Shown here: in pieces, positions 47,288 to 57,419 of the stretch
Numbering within the stretch: position 1 is the first letter of the stretch
Layout of the letters: the number at the start of each line of letters is the position of its first letter
Assembly: GCA_029262195.1 (NCBI GenBank)
Contig: JAJCZX010000004.1
Coordinates: 124,001 to 188,000, forward strand
DNA: 64,000 nt
DNA from: Gemmatimonadota bacterium
Lineage (GTDB): Bacteria; Gemmatimonadota; Gemmatimonadetes; Gemmatimonadales; GWC2-71-9
Direction: 5' to 3'
The notes under the pieces: generated by a model
What the model saw: the letters and a program-made list of their open reading frames with translations, nothing else
Told to the model about the DNA's origin: nothing
Databases searched by the model: none
Program-made: the position numbers and the translations under genes

Positions 47288-48757
47288 ATGAGCAACGTTA
47301 AGAAATATGTTCCGTCAGATCGAGCACAAGCCTTTCTCGATACGGTGGAGAGCCCCAAGTACGAACGCAACAACGTCAATGGTTTAAAGCCTTTTCTCGA
47401 CGACCGCGTTTCGGAAAACATGCAGGGTTTTTATTCCCCTGATGAATTGGAAGCACTACGGACCCTCAAAGGGACCGAACGTGACGTGGAAGCCAGGATG
47501 CCGGTCAAGATGACCCAGCACTATTTCGACATGGCGCAGCGGAGCCCGCACCTGAGGCGTTTGGTTAAAGCCACCCCTGACGAGACAAAAAGCCTCGCCG
47601 GCTCGGAAGATCCCGGGTACCAGATGGACTTCAGTCCCGTGGAGGGAATGCTGCACAAATATGAAATCGGTCTCCTCTACGTCATTTCGACCTGCTCGGC
47701 GCACTGTCGGTTTTGTTACAGAGAGGAGTTGATCAGCCGCAAGGAAGTGGAACGACAGGATGGGACGGTCGCGAAGAAGGGCCTGGCCCGGATAGAAGAC
47801 GTTACCGACTACATCATTTCCCACAACCGGATCGTGGATGAAAACGACGGCCGCCACCCCGAAACGGGCCGCGAACGCCTGCGTGAGATTTTGTTGTCCG
47901 GTGGCGACCCGATGGTTTTGCCAAACATCAAGATCGCCGAGTGGCTTTCCGCGCTTGCTGAGGCGGGGATCGAATCCATGCGCATAGGCACTAAGGAAAT
48001 GGCGTTCTTCCCCGACCGTTTCGACGAGTCCTTCCTGTCAATGCTGCGAGGATTCCACGAAACGTACCCTGATGTCGGGCTCCACTTCATGGTGCACTTC
48101 AACCACCCGGACGAGTTCCTCGAAAAAGATTCTACCGGAGAGTACGTCGAAAACCCGAACGGGTCGCTGAAATGGAATGATTCCGCAAAGAGGGCCGTGG
48201 AAGGACTCACGGACCTCGCCTGGGTGACCGTCGAAAATCAGTCACCCATCATCAGTGGCATCAACGACGATGCCGATGCCTTGCGAATCATGCAACGCTC
48301 ATTAAAGCGAGTCGGAGCGGAGAACCATTATTTCTTCTGCGGACGTGACATTGTCGCCCACGAGGCCTTCAATGTCCCGATCGAGACCGCCTGGTTTACG
48401 TTAAACGAATCGCAAAAAGGCCTATCGGGCGTCGAAACACGAGCACGACTTTCGATTACCCATTACAAGGGTAAAACCGAAGTGGCCGCTGTTACCAATG
48501 AGCCGATTCCAGGCCTCGCAGGTTCCGAAAACGGTGTCGTGATTTTCAAGATCCTTCGTAACGCCCTCGGTGCTCCGGATCGCGGCAAGGTTTGCATCGT
48601 GGCACGGAATCCGGAAGCAATCTGGTTTGACGGCTATGCAGATCGGGTATTATTCGACGAAGCTGGCCTGTTTGATTATGATCGGGTAAAGGCTGAGAGA
48701 CTTAAAGCCGCAACATTGCCAACTGCAGTCGACACCGAACACTCCATCGCCCGGTAG
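47288..48757 (+). CDS. KamA-like radical SAM 2,3-aminomutase
   Basis: A 489-residue protein. The radical SAM cluster motif is CSAHCRFC (C136, C140, C143), followed by ILLSGGDPM (201-209) as in lysine 2,3-aminomutases. The PLP-lysine region differs: the usual PGGGGK is replaced by THYKGKTEV with K396 at the aligned place. This marks a divergent branch, so the substrate may not be lysine. Enzymes of the family move an amino group from the alpha to the beta carbon. ATG start at 47288. It heads an operon with a two-subunit CoA-transferase and a class III aminotransferase (gaps 29 bases, overlap 4, gap 26). Confidence 0.88.
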   Translation: MSNVKKYVPSDRAQAFLDTVESPKYERNNVNGLKPFLDDRVSENMQGFYSPDELEALRTLKGTERDVEARMPVKMTQHYFDMAQRSPHLRRLVKATPDETKSLAGSEDPGYQMDFSPVEGMLHKYEIGLLYVISTCSAHCRFCYREELISRKEVERQDGTVAKKGLARIEDVTDYIISHNRIVDENDGRHPETGRERLREILLSGGDPMVLPNIKIAEWLSALAEAGIESMRIGTKEMAFFPDRFDESFLSMLRGFHETYPDVGLHFMVHFNHPDEFLEKDSTGEYVENPNGSLKWNDSAKRAVEGLTDLAWVTVENQSPIISGINDDADALRIMQRSLKRVGAENHYFFCGRDIVAHEAFNVPIETAWFTLNESQKGLSGVETRARLSITHYKGKTEVAAVTNEPIPGLAGSENGVVIFKILRNALGAPDRGKVCIVARNPEAIWFDGYADRVLFDEAGLFDYDRVKAERLKAATLPTAVDTEHSIAR

Positions 48758-48786
48758 AACAATGCAACAATCCGGGTACCGGTAAA

Positions 48787-49497
48787 GTGATCAACAAAAA
48801 AGTTGCGAACGTTGAAGAGGCGGTCGCAGACGTGTTCGATGGTGCAACGGTCATGATAGGCGGATTCGGGGAAGCTGGCAGTCCGATCGAGCTCATCCAT
48901 GCATTGATTGATCAGGGCGCCACTGACCTAACCGTGGTAAACAACAACACCGGCAGCGGTGAGGTGGGACTCGCCGCACTGATTAAAGCTGGCCGCGTTT
49001 CCAAAATGATCTGTTCCTATCCGCGCAGTACCAACTCCACCGTTTTCCCGGACAAGTATCGCAGCGGACACACTGAGTTGGAATTGGTCCCCCAGGGAAC
49101 CCTCGCCGAACGTATTCGTGCCGGTGGCGCAGGGATACCTGCCTTTTACACACCCACTGCAGTCGGGACGCCATTGGGTGAGGGCATGGAGGTCCGGACG
49201 TTCGACGGCCGCCAATACCTCATGGCCTACGGCCTCACCGCCGACTTCGCACTGCTAAAAGGAAAAACAGCCGACTACCACGGCAACGTTGTCTACAACA
49301 AAACGGCCCGTAACTTTGGCCCCCTCATGGCGACGGCTGCGAAGGTCACCATCGTGCAGGCAGCCTCAGTCGTGTCGATCGGTGAACTTGATCCGGAAGT
49401 GATCGTGACACCGGGAATTTTCGTGAAGCGCGTTGTCGCAGTTCCCGACCCCCAACATGAGTCCACTCTGGTTGCCGCAGGGGTTTCTTACCCATGA
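48787..49497 (+). CDS. 3-oxoacid CoA-transferase subunit A (PcaI/AtoD-like)
   Basis: A 236-residue CoA-transferase alpha subunit. GGFGEAGSPIELIHAL is the family glycine motif; ELELVPQGTLAERIRAGGAG and ELDPEVIVTPGIFVKRVV follow. The overall pattern is closest, by eye, to the alpha subunit of 3-oxoadipate:succinyl-CoA transferase, though acetoacetate enzymes are similar. GTG start at 48787. It overlaps subunit B by four bases (ATGA). Role: with subunit B, transfers CoA from succinyl-CoA or acetyl-CoA to a 3-oxo acid. Confidence 0.92.
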   Translation: MINKKVANVEEAVADVFDGATVMIGGFGEAGSPIELIHALIDQGATDLTVVNNNTGSGEVGLAALIKAGRVSKMICSYPRSTNSTVFPDKYRSGHTELELVPQGTLAERIRAGGAGIPAFYTPTAVGTPLGEGMEVRTFDGRQYLMAYGLTADFALLKGKTADYHGNVVYNKTARNFGPLMATAAKVTIVQAASVVSIGELDPEVIVTPGIFVKRVVAVPDPQHESTLVAAGVSYP

Positions 49498-50159
49498 CTG
49501 AACAAAAAGAAATCGTAGGCCTGACTCGCGATCAGATGGCTCAGCGGTGCGCGCTCGATATCCATGATGGCTCCTATGTGAACCTCGGAATCGGCATTCC
49601 AGAATTGGTAGCCGGATACGTTCCAGAAGGCAGAGAAGTTATCTACCACACCGAGAATGGCCTGCTCGGCATGGGCCAGCCACCCGAACCCGGCAAGGGC
49701 AACCCCGAACTGATTAACGCCGGCAAGAAACAGGTCACCGCCAACCCCGGGGCAGCTTACTTTCATCACGCAGATAGCTTCGCGATGATCCGGGGTGGTC
49801 ATCTGGATGTGTGCGTACTCGGCGCTCTTCAGGTCTCACAGACCGGTGATCTTGCCAACTGGTCGACCGGAGCGCCAGGAGCGATTCCGTCGGTAGGCGG
49901 AGCGATGGACCTCATCGCCGGTGTCAAAACCGTTTACGTGATCACCCAACACACCACGCGAGACGGTGAGCCCAAACTCGTGGAGTCTTGCACCTTTCCG
50001 TTAACGGGACTGGGTGTTGTTCATCGGATTTACACCGACCTTGCAGTTATCGATGTCGTCGATGGTCAATTCAAGGTTGTCGAGTTGAGCCCCGGAATCG
50101 ACGTTGACTACGTCCAGCAACGGACTGGCGCCACGCTGATTCCATTGGCTGACACTTAG
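49494..50159 (+). CDS. 3-oxoacid CoA-transferase subunit B (PcaJ/AtoA-like)
   Basis: A 221-residue beta subunit. The catalytic glutamate is E54 in HTENGLLGMG. YVNLGIGIPELVA, GAYFHHADSFAMIRGGHLD and DLANWSTGAPGAIPSVGGAMD are family segments, again most like 3-oxoadipate CoA-transferase. ATG at 49494, translationally coupled to subunit A. In this operon it would activate the beta-keto acid made by the neighbouring aminotransferase. Confidence 0.92.
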   Translation: MTEQKEIVGLTRDQMAQRCALDIHDGSYVNLGIGIPELVAGYVPEGREVIYHTENGLLGMGQPPEPGKGNPELINAGKKQVTANPGAAYFHHADSFAMIRGGHLDVCVLGALQVSQTGDLANWSTGAPGAIPSVGGAMDLIAGVKTVYVITQHTTRDGEPKLVESCTFPLTGLGVVHRIYTDLAVIDVVDGQFKVVELSPGIDVDYVQQRTGATLIPLADT

Positions 50160-50185
50160 AACCCAGTTAGCGGGAGCACGACAAC

Positions 50186-51499
50186 GTGACTGACACACAG
50201 ACACTTTCGGCCAGCGCAAGCCTTTACGAACGGGCACTCAAAATCCTGCCCGGCGGAGTTAGCCGTAACACCGTTCTCCGAAAGCCTCATCCTCTTTACG
50301 CCCACCATGGCACCGGCGCGCGGATAACAGACATCGAAGGTGTCGAGAGAATCGACTTCGCTAACAATATGGCTTCGTTGATTCACGGGCACGCACACCC
50401 AACAGTGGTTGCTGCGGTGACTGAGCAATTACAAAGGGGTACCGCGTTTTCTGAAGGAACCGAAATCGAGGTTCGATTTGCCGAACATCTTGTTAGCAGA
50501 TGCGGTAGCTTCGAAAAACTTCGTTTCGTTAACTCCGGCACTGAAGCTGTGATGAGTTGTTTGAAGGCTGCGCGAGCGTTTACCGGCCGCCCCAAAATTG
50601 CAAAAGTCGAAGGAGCCTACCACGGGCAGTACGATTACGCGGAGGTTAGTCAGAATCCCAACCCCGACAACTGGGGCGATGAAGATGCTCCCAACGCAGT
50701 GCCAGTCGCCCATGGTACGCCACTCAATGCCCTGGCCGACGTTATTGTCATTCCTTACAACGACACCGAACGCGCCCTCGCCCTTCTTGATCAACACAAG
50801 GGTGAAATTGCCTGCGTGCTAATGGACCTGATGTCTCACCGGGTCGGACTTCGACCCGCGGAAGCAGGATTTGTCAAAGCGATGCGGGATTGGACCGAAG
50901 CCGACGGCTCACTGCTGGTGCTGGATGAGGTAATAACGTTTCGATCGGAATACGGCGGTGCCCAGACGTGGTACGACCTCACACCCGATCTCACCGCGAT
51001 GGGCAAGTTCATCGGAGGCGGGTTTCCGGTTGGAGCTCTTGCGGGAAGAGCAGACGTAATGGACGTCATGGACCCTCTGGCAAAGGTCGTCCAGTTCCCT
51101 CACTCTGGCACGTTCAGCGCCAATCCGATTACGATGACCGCAGGCCTGACAACGATGGAGTTATACGACCAGGCAGCCGTGAAGTATATAAACGACATGG
51201 CCGTCCACCTGCGCGAAGGTATCGAAGAGGTGATACACGCGACCGGGGTGAAGGCATGTGTCACCGGCGGAGGATCGCTGCTCCGCATACACGCTCGCGA
51301 AACACCGCCGACCAATTACAGAGAAGCTTTTTGGACGCATGAACAACGCAGCAAACTCACAGGGCTTATCAACCATTTTTTCGCTGCCGGAATCACCATG
51401 ATCAACACCTGCACCGTAGCGATGTCTACTGTTCTCGGCGAGTCGGAGATTGATACCTTACTATCGGCGCTTGAGAGTGGGTTTGCAAAGTGGGAATGA
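50186..51499 (+). CDS. Class III aminotransferase (GSA-like, candidate beta-transaminase)
   Basis: A 437-residue fold-type I PLP enzyme similar to glutamate-1-semialdehyde aminomutases and beta-amino-acid transaminases. NSGTEAVMSCLKAAR binds the phosphate, VLDEVITFR holds D247, and the Schiff-base lysine is K274 in AMGKFIGGGFPVGAL; PHSGTFSANPITM follows. Haem biosynthesis is unlikely given the operon. After an aminomutase, a transaminase acting on the beta-amino group would yield a beta-keto acid. GTG start at 50186, 26 bases after subunit B. Confidence 0.88.
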   Translation: MTDTQTLSASASLYERALKILPGGVSRNTVLRKPHPLYAHHGTGARITDIEGVERIDFANNMASLIHGHAHPTVVAAVTEQLQRGTAFSEGTEIEVRFAEHLVSRCGSFEKLRFVNSGTEAVMSCLKAARAFTGRPKIAKVEGAYHGQYDYAEVSQNPNPDNWGDEDAPNAVPVAHGTPLNALADVIVIPYNDTERALALLDQHKGEIACVLMDLMSHRVGLRPAEAGFVKAMRDWTEADGSLLVLDEVITFRSEYGGAQTWYDLTPDLTAMGKFIGGGFPVGALAGRADVMDVMDPLAKVVQFPHSGTFSANPITMTAGLTTMELYDQAAVKYINDMAVHLREGIEEVIHATGVKACVTGGGSLLRIHARETPPTNYREAFWTHEQRSKLTGLINHFFAAGITMINTCTVAMSTVLGESEIDTLLSALESGFAKWE

Positions 51500-55152: not shown

Positions 55153-56217
55153 TCATTCGCCCTCTTTCGTGACCTGAATATTGGTTGCGAGATCGTCACG
55201 CAATCTTTCATCGACCCCACCCCGCACCTGATTCTCAAGGGCTTTGCGAATCGGCGCCACTCCATCGCGCGGAATCGCGATGTGACACACCGGGTCGCCC
55301 GGTTTGACAGCGGGGAGGGTAGTCATTCCCAGCACGACACCCGAGACGGGCGTGCAAAGCACATTCTGTTCCCCACCCAGCAAGTCTGAATTGGTCGCCA
55401 GCGGCTGGCCCTTGTCCACCACGTCACCGGGTGACACGTGAAACTGTAGCAGTCCACCATAGTCGGCACGCACCCATTTGGTCTTGTCGACCCGCGCCTG
55501 ATAGGCCGGCAGCTGGATATCCCCGGCGACCATCTCCAGGCTTTTGAGTACGTTGGTCACTCCGCGCGTGCCCACGTCGACCACAGCGCGTTCGATCTTC
55601 CAAACTTCGCCCGCTTCGAGGATGATCGTGGGACAACCAGCCTCGAGACAGGAGCGGCGCAATGACCCTTGCGGCCCCATGCTATTGACGACGATTTCAC
55701 ACCCAAACGCCCAGGCCATCTTTTTAGTGGCTTCATCGGTCAGGTCGGCGCGTACGTTGGCGAAGTTAGTGCGCCTTACCGCAGCAGAATGAAGATCGAT
55801 GCCGAAGTCGCATTTCTTGAGCACATCGAATATCGCGCCGGCATACCTCCTCGCCATACTGCCTTCAGACGAACCCGGGAACGATCGATTCAGGTCGCGT
55901 CGATCCGGCAGGTAACGCATGTGACGCTCGAAGCCCAGCATATTCACGACCGGGATCAGAACCAACGTACCGGATTCGAGCACGAAAGGTGGATGCAACA
56001 TCAACTCGCGAACGACACCGGTTCCGTTCAACTCGTCGCCGTGTACTGCCGCGGTTACGAACACTGTCGGCCCCGGGCTCTCGGCGCGGATTACCTTGAA
56101 CGGCAGGTAAAGGGGAAGGCCCGCAAAGCTGGCAGACACCTCTAATTGCAGATTTGTGGTTTCGCCCGGCTCAACCTGCTTCCCGGCGAACTCTATATCG
56201 GAAGCCGAGTGCGTCAA
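55153..56217 (-). CDS. Succinylglutamate desuccinylase/aspartoacylase family protein
   Basis: A 354-residue M14-like zinc deacylase. The metal motif is AAVHGDELNG (HxxE), the substrate arginines lie in DRRDLNRSFPG, and the third ligand is in DLHSAA. The C-terminal half (GGLLQFHVSPGDVVDKGQPLA) is the extra beta domain of this subgroup. TTG start at 56217 overlaps the rimK-like stop (TTGA). In rimB-rimK-linked clusters this protein may cleave an N-acyl or glutamyl modification; its substrate is unknown. Confidence 0.87.
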   Translation of the reverse strand: MTHSASDIEFAGKQVEPGETTNLQLEVSASFAGLPLYLPFKVIRAESPGPTVFVTAAVHGDELNGTGVVRELMLHPPFVLESGTLVLIPVVNMLGFERHMRYLPDRRDLNRSFPGSSEGSMARRYAGAIFDVLKKCDFGIDLHSAAVRRTNFANVRADLTDEATKKMAWAFGCEIVVNSMGPQGSLRRSCLEAGCPTIILEAGEVWKIERAVVDVGTRGVTNVLKSLEMVAGDIQLPAYQARVDKTKWVRADYGGLLQFHVSPGDVVDKGQPLATNSDLLGGEQNVLCTPVSGVVLGMTTLPAVKPGDPVCHIAIPRDGVAPIRKALENQVRGGVDERLRDDLATNIQVTKEGE

Positions 56218-57419
56218 GCGTCGTCCCCCGATGGTTCCGCAAGGGGCACGAGCTCCGGCGGCAGCCTCTTAGTTCTTCGGCGACGTTTTGTCGTCGGCAG
56301 AAATTCTTTCATCGCCTCTCGTTTGCCAAAACAGACGAGGCGGTCACCGTTCATGATTTCGCGCCCCGGGTCCGGATTCGAGACCACAAGGGTGTCGCGT
56401 TGGATCGACAGCACGACAATGTCCCTGTCCTTGAGGCCGGAATTTTCAATTGTTTGCCCGACGAGGAGCGACTTCTCGCCGATGTTGAATTCACTGACGC
56501 CGTAGCTCTTGCTCACCGTGAGTTTCTGACGTATATCGAGTTCGGGGAAACTCACGCCTTCAGCGACAAAATCGATAATGGCTCCGGCGATATCCAGCCC
56601 GCTCGACGCCTCGATCCCCTCGAGACCTGGCGAGGAATTGACCTCCATCACCTGGGGGCCGTTGGTTCCTTCGAGCATGTCCACTCCGGCTACCTGGAGT
56701 CCCATGATCTGGGCGGCCCGGATGGCGGTCTTTTCGTAGATCGGATCGAGCTTTATCGATTCGGTAACGCCGCCGCGATGAACATTGCTGCGAAACTCCT
56801 GGCCCTGCGCTACCCGTCGCATCGCGGCAACCACCTGATCCCCGACCACAAAAGCACGAACGTCTTTCCCCTTACTCTCCGCCACAAACTTCTGGATCAA
56901 AACGTTTTGTTTGGCGCTCTGTAGTGTCTCGATGATCGCCTCGGCGACCTTCAAAGAGTCGGCCAGAATCACACCAACGCCCTGGGTTCCCTCCAGCAGC
57001 TTGATGATGACCGGCGCTCCGCCGACGCGTTCGATCGCCGGGAGTACGTCCTTTTTGTCGCGGACGAACTCCGTGGCGGGAATACCGACGTCGTGCCTGC
57101 TCAGCACCTGCAGCGCGCGAAGCTTGTCGCGAGAATTAGCGATACCCGAGGACGAGTTGGCGCAGAAGACGCCCATCTGTTCAAACTGTCTCACTACGGC
57201 GGTACCGTAGTACGTGATCGAAGCACCGATCCGCGGGATAACCGCGTCGTAGGTCGACAGCGGTTTACCCCGAAAGTAGAGGTCAGGGTACTCGTGTTCG
57301 AGGGAAATCGCGAACCGGGTCGTGTCCAGGACCTTTACCTTGTGTCCCCGGTGTAGAGCCGCGTCCTTCAGTCGTTTGGTGCTGTAGCTCATGCTGCGTG
57401 AGAGAATCCCGAGTTTCAC
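56214..57419 (-). CDS. rimK: RimK family ATP-grasp ligase with C-terminal TrkA-C domain
   Basis: A 401-residue protein. Residues 1-290 form a RimK-type ATP-grasp glutamate ligase (GVFCANSSSGIANSRDK, APVIIKLLEGTQGVGVIL, GKDVRAFVVGDQVVAAM, VMEVNSSPGLEGIE). Residues ~300-375 (SEFNIGEKSLLVGQTI, NSGLKDRDIVVLSI, NGDRLVCFG) resemble an RCK_C/TrkA-C regulatory domain, not present in E. coli RimK. GTG start overlaps the rimB-like stop (TAGTG). Probable role: ATP-dependent glutamate addition to ribosomal protein S6 or another target, gated by a small ligand. Confidence 0.87.
   Translation of the reverse strand: MKLGILSRSMSYSTKRLKDAALHRGHKVKVLDTTRFAISLEHEYPDLYFRGKPLSTYDAVIPRIGASITYYGTAVVRQFEQMGVFCANSSSGIANSRDKLRALQVLSRHDVGIPATEFVRDKKDVLPAIERVGGAPVIIKLLEGTQGVGVILADSLKVAEAIIETLQSAKQNVLIQKFVAESKGKDVRAFVVGDQVVAAMRRVAQGQEFRSNVHRGGVTESIKLDPIYEKTAIRAAQIMGLQVAGVDMLEGTNGPQVMEVNSSPGLEGIEASSGLDIAGAIIDFVAEGVSFPELDIRQKLTVSKSYGVSEFNIGEKSLLVGQTIENSGLKDRDIVVLSIQRDTLVVSNPDPGREIMNGDRLVCFGKREAMKEFLPTTKRRRRTKRLPPELVPLAEPSGDDA

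Follow-up and report, generated by a model that had tools for sequence, protein, structure and literature searches.

Four adjacent genes in a 64,000-nucleotide stretch of the genome of a Gemmatimonadota bacterium (assembly GCA_029262195.1, contig JAJCZX010000004.1, positions 124,001 to 188,000; this whole stretch is called the window) probably form the core of a pathway that breaks down lysine and 2-aminoadipate by way of 3-aminoadipate, 3-oxoadipate, and 3-oxoadipyl-coenzyme A (CoA). The genes encode a radical S-adenosylmethionine (SAM), pyridoxal phosphate (PLP)-dependent 2,3-aminomutase, the A and B subunits of a 3-oxoacid CoA-transferase, and a class III aminotransferase (Table 1). The set had first been noticed from the sequence alone as a line from an alpha-amino acid to a beta-ketoacyl-CoA (the original prediction), and the open-reading frames (ORFs) and family matches agree with the four genes named there, including the class III assignment of the aminotransferase.

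Conservation and natural variants of the gene set

The four ORFs are separated by 29, -4, and 26 bases, the subunit B gene overlapping the subunit A gene by 4, and the genes on either side of the set in the window are unrelated. Promoter and terminator scans of the locus gave nothing clearly above chance.

Table 1 Features of the four-gene locus, in window coordinates
Gene product	Position	Strand	Length (aa)	Start codon
Radical SAM/PLP 2,3-aminomutase	47288..48757	+	489	
3-Oxoacid CoA-transferase subunit A (PcaI-like, 3-oxoadipate-type)	48787..49497	+	236	GTG
3-Oxoacid CoA-transferase subunit B (PcaJ-like)	49494..50159	+	221	
Class III aminotransferase, beta-transaminase type	50186..51499	+	437	GTG

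Conservation of this arrangement was followed in the 80 best of 293 encoded aminomutase relatives from a scan of a genome collection, which together with a plasmid locus of Mesorhizobium sp. 113-3-3 gave 81 distinct loci (L002, apparently the same contig as L010, was not counted twice). All three partners lie beside the aminomutase gene in 71 of these loci; among the remaining ten, five are truncated at contig ends, and two Woeseiaceae-type loci have the transferase genes on a divergent arm where the contig ends. The order aminomutase, A subunit, B subunit, and aminotransferase on one strand is present in 69 of the 81, more than can be put down to chance, and the lack of co-occurrence that the original prediction had considered as an outcome was not seen. 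Carriers belong to at least six phyla (Gemmatimonadota, Planctomycetota, Acidobacteriota, Acidimicrobiia/Actinomycetota, Gammaproteobacteria, and Chloroflexi), and variants of the gene set occur in Pseudomonadota and Chloroflexota. Within the window's phylum, 2 of 395 genomes carry the aminomutase family (G000 and G274; a third match, at 37% identity, belongs to another KamA-like branch), as do 9 of 294 genomes of the phylum of one Planctomycetota carrier, a patchy distribution that suggests horizontal transfer. A gene for an RpiR-type regulator (HTH_6 + SIS) accompanies 41 of the 82 scanned loci (L002 included), usually divergent and just upstream, and was not found at the window locus.

Two natural replacements bear on the function of the set. 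In the Mesorhizobium plasmid locus, an aminomutase 63% identical to that of the window is followed by genes for a ferredoxin, the same aminotransferase, and, from another branch, a CoA-transferase that is closest to glutaconate CoA-transferase. In Woeseiaceae, an enzyme nearest to the beta-transaminases MesAT and VpAT takes the place of the aminotransferase, and locus L027 carries a linked run of A subunit, B subunit, PcaF thiolase, MesAT-like beta-transaminase, and lysine-dehydrogenase-like gene. The exchange of a part for a non-orthologous one with the same job supports the job itself. The Mesorhizobium ferredoxin gene (L004:13480-13803), which lies between the aminomutase and aminotransferase genes and is possibly the electron donor of the aminomutase, is accompanied by a GlxA-type regulator gene that follows.

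Families and substrate sites of the four enzymes

The original description of the aminomutase as KamA-like held at the superfamily level and not at the level of the lysine and glutamate 2,3-aminomutases (LAM and EAM). Its scores were below the cut-off of every curated model, with 85.8 bits against TIGR00238 (radical SAM KamA superfamily, cut-off 199.2), 66.9 bits against TIGR03820 (lysine 2,3-aminomutase, AblA/KamA; lys_2_3_AblA, cut-off 525.4), and 63.8 bits against TIGR04368 (EAM, cut-off 650). The LAM C-terminal domain PF12544 had no match in the window's genome, the same family being matched in 5 control genomes. Both the nearest solved structure and the best fold match were nonetheless LAM (2a5h, E 1e-11); the predicted structures were of moderate quality (predicted local distance difference test, pLDDT, 75.5 and 72.5) and served fold assignment only. 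Like LAM (KamA/AblA) and EAM, the enzyme has the radical SAM motif CxxxCxxC (C136/C140/C143), and R145 and K396 stand at the positions of LAM R134 (the alpha-carboxylate Arg) and K337 (the PLP lysine); all of these residues are invariant among members of the family.

Unlike these shared residues, the part of the substrate site that would face the side chain is altered. The alignment of the family profile with LAM is free of gaps around this site, and an Arg (Arg353) occupies the position of LAM Asp293 in every one of 83 members, while the region of LAM Asp330 reads LSITHYKGK and holds neither Asp nor Glu. Asp293 and Asp330 are the ligands of the lysine side-chain amine in LAM, and EAM has Lys and Asn at these positions. 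Given this replacement and the low model scores, the enzyme is not a plain LAM, an identity that the original prediction had named as counting against its own reading. Arg also occupies the Asp293 column in several other KamA-like branches (EpmB and two rhizobial proteins retain Asp), so R353 speaks more strongly against lysine than for an acidic side chain. In a tree used only for the unity of the operon clade, these aminomutases form one branch with support of 100/99; deep joins among KamA-like branches were set aside because of very long branches. We propose that the enzyme acts as an L-2-aminoadipate 2,3-aminomutase, which would be a new enzyme activity.

It is very improbable that the aminomutase instead makes beta-lysine for a pathway through 3-oxo-6-aminohexanoyl-CoA. 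A route from beta-lysine to a beta-keto acid and its CoA ester is known from a Pseudomonas, and the enzyme shares superfamily and fold with LAM, but both lysine-binding Asp residues are lost, the lys_2_3_AblA score (66.9 vs 525.4) and the missing C-terminal domain set it apart, and the linked L-piperideine-6-carboxylate (P6C) dehydrogenase described below would serve no purpose.

The other KamA-like branches with Arg comprise L003:1300-2478 (minus strand), L149:565-1644, L150, L151:247-1533, and L152:2635-4014, and their substrates are probably not lysine. L003, from the same bacterial family as the window, adjoins an acyl-CoA synthetase-like gene.

Each CoA-transferase subunit scored above its own curated cut-off (subunit A, 336.5 bits against TIGR02429, cut-off 128.5; subunit B, 296.4 bits against TIGR02428, cut-off 243.55), as expected for the PcaIJ-like pair originally described. 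Subunit A is 57-62% identical to PcaI of pcaIJF operons, compared to 44-52% for two subunits of other types, and falls on one branch with four PcaI sequences (100/100) in a small test with two outside references, in keeping with the likeness to 3-oxoadipate enzymes that had been pointed out.

The aminotransferase is closest to the beta-amino-acid transaminase of Sphaerobacter (St-TA, 6k8h), with 507 bits by profile and 45% identity in the structure comparison. Its R27 corresponds to R36 of that enzyme, the P pocket carboxylate Arg, and is kept in 69 of 69 members; R36 has been proposed as the substrate carboxyl-binding residue (PMC10589169). St-TA, MesAT, and VpAT are its closest relatives and are biocatalysts for aromatic and aliphatic beta-amino acids, whereas the operon enzyme, a candidate 3-aminoadipate:2-oxoglutarate transaminase, would act on a dicarboxylic beta-amino acid. 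A role for R32 as a second carboxylate clamp was dropped, since seven members have Trp there. The haem-pathway glutamate-1-semialdehyde aminomutase (GSAM; HemL, TIGR00713), raised originally as a competing identity, was rejected, as the operon enzyme scored 325 bits against a cut-off of 527 and a separate hemL locus in the genome scored 544.

The proposal is weakest on whether transamination or CoA transfer comes first, because Kat, which is likewise HemL-like and belongs to lysine metabolism, works only on CoA esters (PMC3149608). By analogy with Kat and 3-aminobutyryl-CoA, 3-aminoadipyl-CoA could be formed first and the aminotransferase act on the CoA ester, and the place of the CoA-transferase genes ahead of the aminotransferase gene does not decide the matter. 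We consider this unlikely, since the aminotransferase shares ~45% identity with a transaminase that acts on free beta-amino acids, the proposed carboxyl-binding Arg is kept throughout, the enzyme that replaces it in Woeseiaceae has solved free-acid beta-transaminases as its closest relatives, and Kat was reported to be only 24% identical to the Mesorhizobium beta-transaminase (published figure; PMC3149608). Transamination of free 3-aminoadipate before CoA transfer is thus the order we favor.

Linked thiolase and lysine-dehydrogenase genes

A PcaF/PaaJ-like thiolase gene flanks 16 loci, so that the thiolase sought by the original prediction does join the cluster in some relatives. Of the seven linked thiolases tested, four exceeded the 3-oxoadipyl-CoA thiolase cut-off of 597 bits (TIGR02430; L023 680, L027 657, L056 616, and L062 603), and those of L069, L074, and L083 scored 553-573, below the cut-off and with 3-oxoadipyl-CoA thiolase models as their best match. 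In the window's genome, a PcaF-like thiolase of 534 bits is encoded elsewhere, in a cluster of phenylacetate breakdown-type genes; phenylacetate breakdown also yields 3-oxoadipyl-CoA. The intradiol ring-cleavage dioxygenase PF00775 was not found in the window's genome, leaving the CoA-transferase with no obvious aromatic job there, and the same absence in 40 of the 52 carriers surveyed led us to reject, for most carriers, the idea that CoA-transferase and thiolase serve aromatics. In L051 (14094-14558) and L053 (14128-14394, seen by eye), the aminotransferase gene is followed directly by a thiolase N-terminal remnant, which would fit the loss or frame-shifting of a once linked thiolase gene.

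The second group of linked genes points upstream of the aminomutase. A P6C dehydrogenase-type aldehyde dehydrogenase gene lies ~0.1-1.6 kb from the aminotransferase gene in L059, L019, L049, and L060, and the three proteins tested exceeded the cut-off of 730 for NF050084 (L-piperideine-6-carboxylate dehydrogenase; L059 816.7, L019 807.1, and L049 736.2). The product of this enzyme is L-2-aminoadipate. In L059 and L019, the P6C dehydrogenase gene is followed by one of the saccharopine/lysine-dehydrogenase type. These lysine-dehydrogenase-like proteins carry PF16653 and PF03435 and match no NCBIfam model; their nearest structure, 3abi, is named in its file only as PH1688 and is probably a lysine 6-dehydrogenase, and they may act on lysine or on saccharopine. 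Genome-wide, P6C dehydrogenase was found in 41 of 52 carriers, compared with 50 of 200 genomes from the window's phylum; within that phylum, the only one for which the comparison was matched, the figures were 4 of 5 carriers and 49 of 199 others (p = 0.017). The window's genome itself encodes a P6C dehydrogenase (785 bits, cut-off 730) and a PF16653 dehydrogenase; together with the four genes and the thiolase, these two give each step between lysine and the products succinyl-CoA and acetyl-CoA a candidate enzyme.

These linked genes strengthen the hint of a dicarboxylic substrate in the original prediction, which had named 2-aminoadipate and glutamate, and they favor the former. With glutamate, the sequence would run through beta-glutamate and 3-oxoglutarate to 3-oxoglutaryl-CoA and thiolysis, and EAM enzymes, which act on glutamate, presumably have a basic residue at the Asp293 position, where Arg stands here. 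A glutamate route is quite improbable given that the EAM model was matched at only 63.8 of the 650 bits set as its cut-off, the CoA-transferase groups with PcaI, the linked thiolases match 3-oxoadipyl-CoA thiolase, and the linked P6C dehydrogenase yields 2-aminoadipate and not glutamate.

Two further arrangements were seen near P6C dehydrogenase genes. An 849-aa phosphotransferase-like/class III aminotransferase fusion is encoded near such a gene at L147:4379-6928 (G000 contig C30; by eye). Among plasmids, the A subunit of the CoA-transferase has its closest relative on a Tistrella mobilis plasmid (L099), where it adjoins genes for HglS (DUF1338), a P6C-dehydrogenase-like protein, and an aminotransferase, followed by a nonribosomal peptide synthetase-type region; the aminomutase was not found at this locus, and the neighborhood is suggestive only.

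The proposed route and its place among lysine pathways

In the proposed route, lysine would be converted to 2-aminoadipate semialdehyde by a lysine 6-dehydrogenase or saccharopine-type enzyme, and the semialdehyde to L-2-aminoadipate by piperideine-6-carboxylate dehydrogenase. The radical SAM, PLP-dependent 2,3-aminomutase would then form 3-aminoadipate, the beta-transaminase 3-oxoadipate, and the PcaIJ-type transferase 3-oxoadipyl-CoA, with succinyl-CoA as the likely CoA donor. A PcaF/PaaJ-type thiolase, neighboring in some relatives and encoded elsewhere here, would cleave 3-oxoadipyl-CoA to succinyl-CoA and acetyl-CoA, regenerating the succinyl-CoA donor. Acetyl-CoA would receive carbons C1-C2 of lysine and succinyl-CoA carbons C3-C6, so that all six carbons would be kept and enter the tricarboxylic acid cycle directly, bypassing 2-oxoadipate.

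The genes, their families and conserved order, the linked thiolase and dehydrogenase genes, and the altered substrate-site residue are observed directly; every reaction, the substrate, whether transamination precedes CoA transfer, and the direction of the route are inferred. Several observations weigh against this reading. The P6C dehydrogenase gene is linked at 4 loci only, its frequency was phylum-matched for a single phylum, and the PF16653 dehydrogenase is present in 31 of 52 carriers. Thiolase adjacency is limited to the 16 loci and the two remnants; the thiolase of the window's own genome is below the PcaF cut-off (534 vs 597) and in another cluster; and among the 52 carriers, many of them incomplete metagenome-assembled genomes, 26 have a PcaF-like thiolase at a stringent threshold, 8 of these above the cut-off. 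L075 has an aminomutase gene without partners, the Arg of the substrate site recurs in other KamA-like branches (L003, L149-L152), and position 32 differs in seven Phycisphaerales transaminases.

The direction could also be biosynthetic, with 3-aminoadipate or another beta-amino acid made as an osmolyte or natural-product piece. Most steps are reversible, and KamA relatives produce beta-lysine or beta-glutamate as osmolytes. This is scarcely likely here, since CoA-transferase, 3-oxoadipyl-CoA thiolase, and linked lysine-degrading dehydrogenases suit breakdown, and no conserved biosynthetic or export gene was found around the loci.

As a breakdown pathway, the proposed route resembles parts of three known systems. 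With the lower beta-ketoadipate pathway (PcaIJ and PcaF), it would have the CoA-transferase and thiolase in common, 3-oxoadipate deriving from an amino acid rather than from aromatics. Clostridial lysine fermentation with Kat (PMC3149608) likewise combines an aminomutase as first enzyme, a HemL-like beta-transaminase, a CoA-transferase, and a thiolase, but there the aminomutase acts on lysine itself and is followed by KamDE, Kdd, and Kce, none of which is part of the conserved cluster, as the original prediction had remarked for the window. The upper part, from lysine through the semialdehyde to 2-aminoadipate, would be shared with the 2-aminoadipate branch of lysine breakdown, from which 2-aminoadipate is known to proceed via 2-oxoadipate to glutaryl-CoA or, by HglS, to 2-hydroxyglutarate (PMC5653290, PMC7286885). 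The proposed exit would be through a beta-amino acid and not by alpha-transamination, and HglS (PF07063) was not found in the window's genome and is absent in 47 of 52 carriers.

Each enzyme belongs to a known class; the novelty appears to lie in the specificity and in how the enzymes are combined. No matching pathway was found in the open-access literature on 3-aminoadipate and aminomutase routes, and an earlier description in subscription papers is possible. It seems rather likely, as a joint reading, that this is an undescribed pathway with a new L-2-aminoadipate 2,3-aminomutase activity, in which 3-oxoadipate is a junction of amino acid and aromatic breakdown, and which has spread by horizontal transfer among Planctomycetota, Acidimicrobiia, Acidobacteriota, Gemmatimonadota, Woeseiaceae, and Mesorhizobium. 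Few amino acid pathways vary as much as lysine breakdown, and the known bacterial routes almost all finish at glutaryl-CoA (PMC5653290). If true, a route that saves carbon by running through 3-aminoadipate would give radical SAM enzymes a new substrate and account for orphan pcaIJ/pcaF-like genes where bacteria have no ring-cleavage enzymes. In many uncultured lineages, it would also change annotations such as 'GSAM', 'lysine 2,3-aminomutase', and 'aromatic degradation' to correct ones. The route may also provide a biological link from lysine to 3-oxoadipate, which is of interest for adipate chemistry.

Elsewhere in the window, at 55153-57419 on the minus strand, overlapping ORFs noted by eye encode a 354-aa aspartoacylase/succinylglutamate desuccinylase-like protein and a 401-aa RimK-like ATP-grasp protein.

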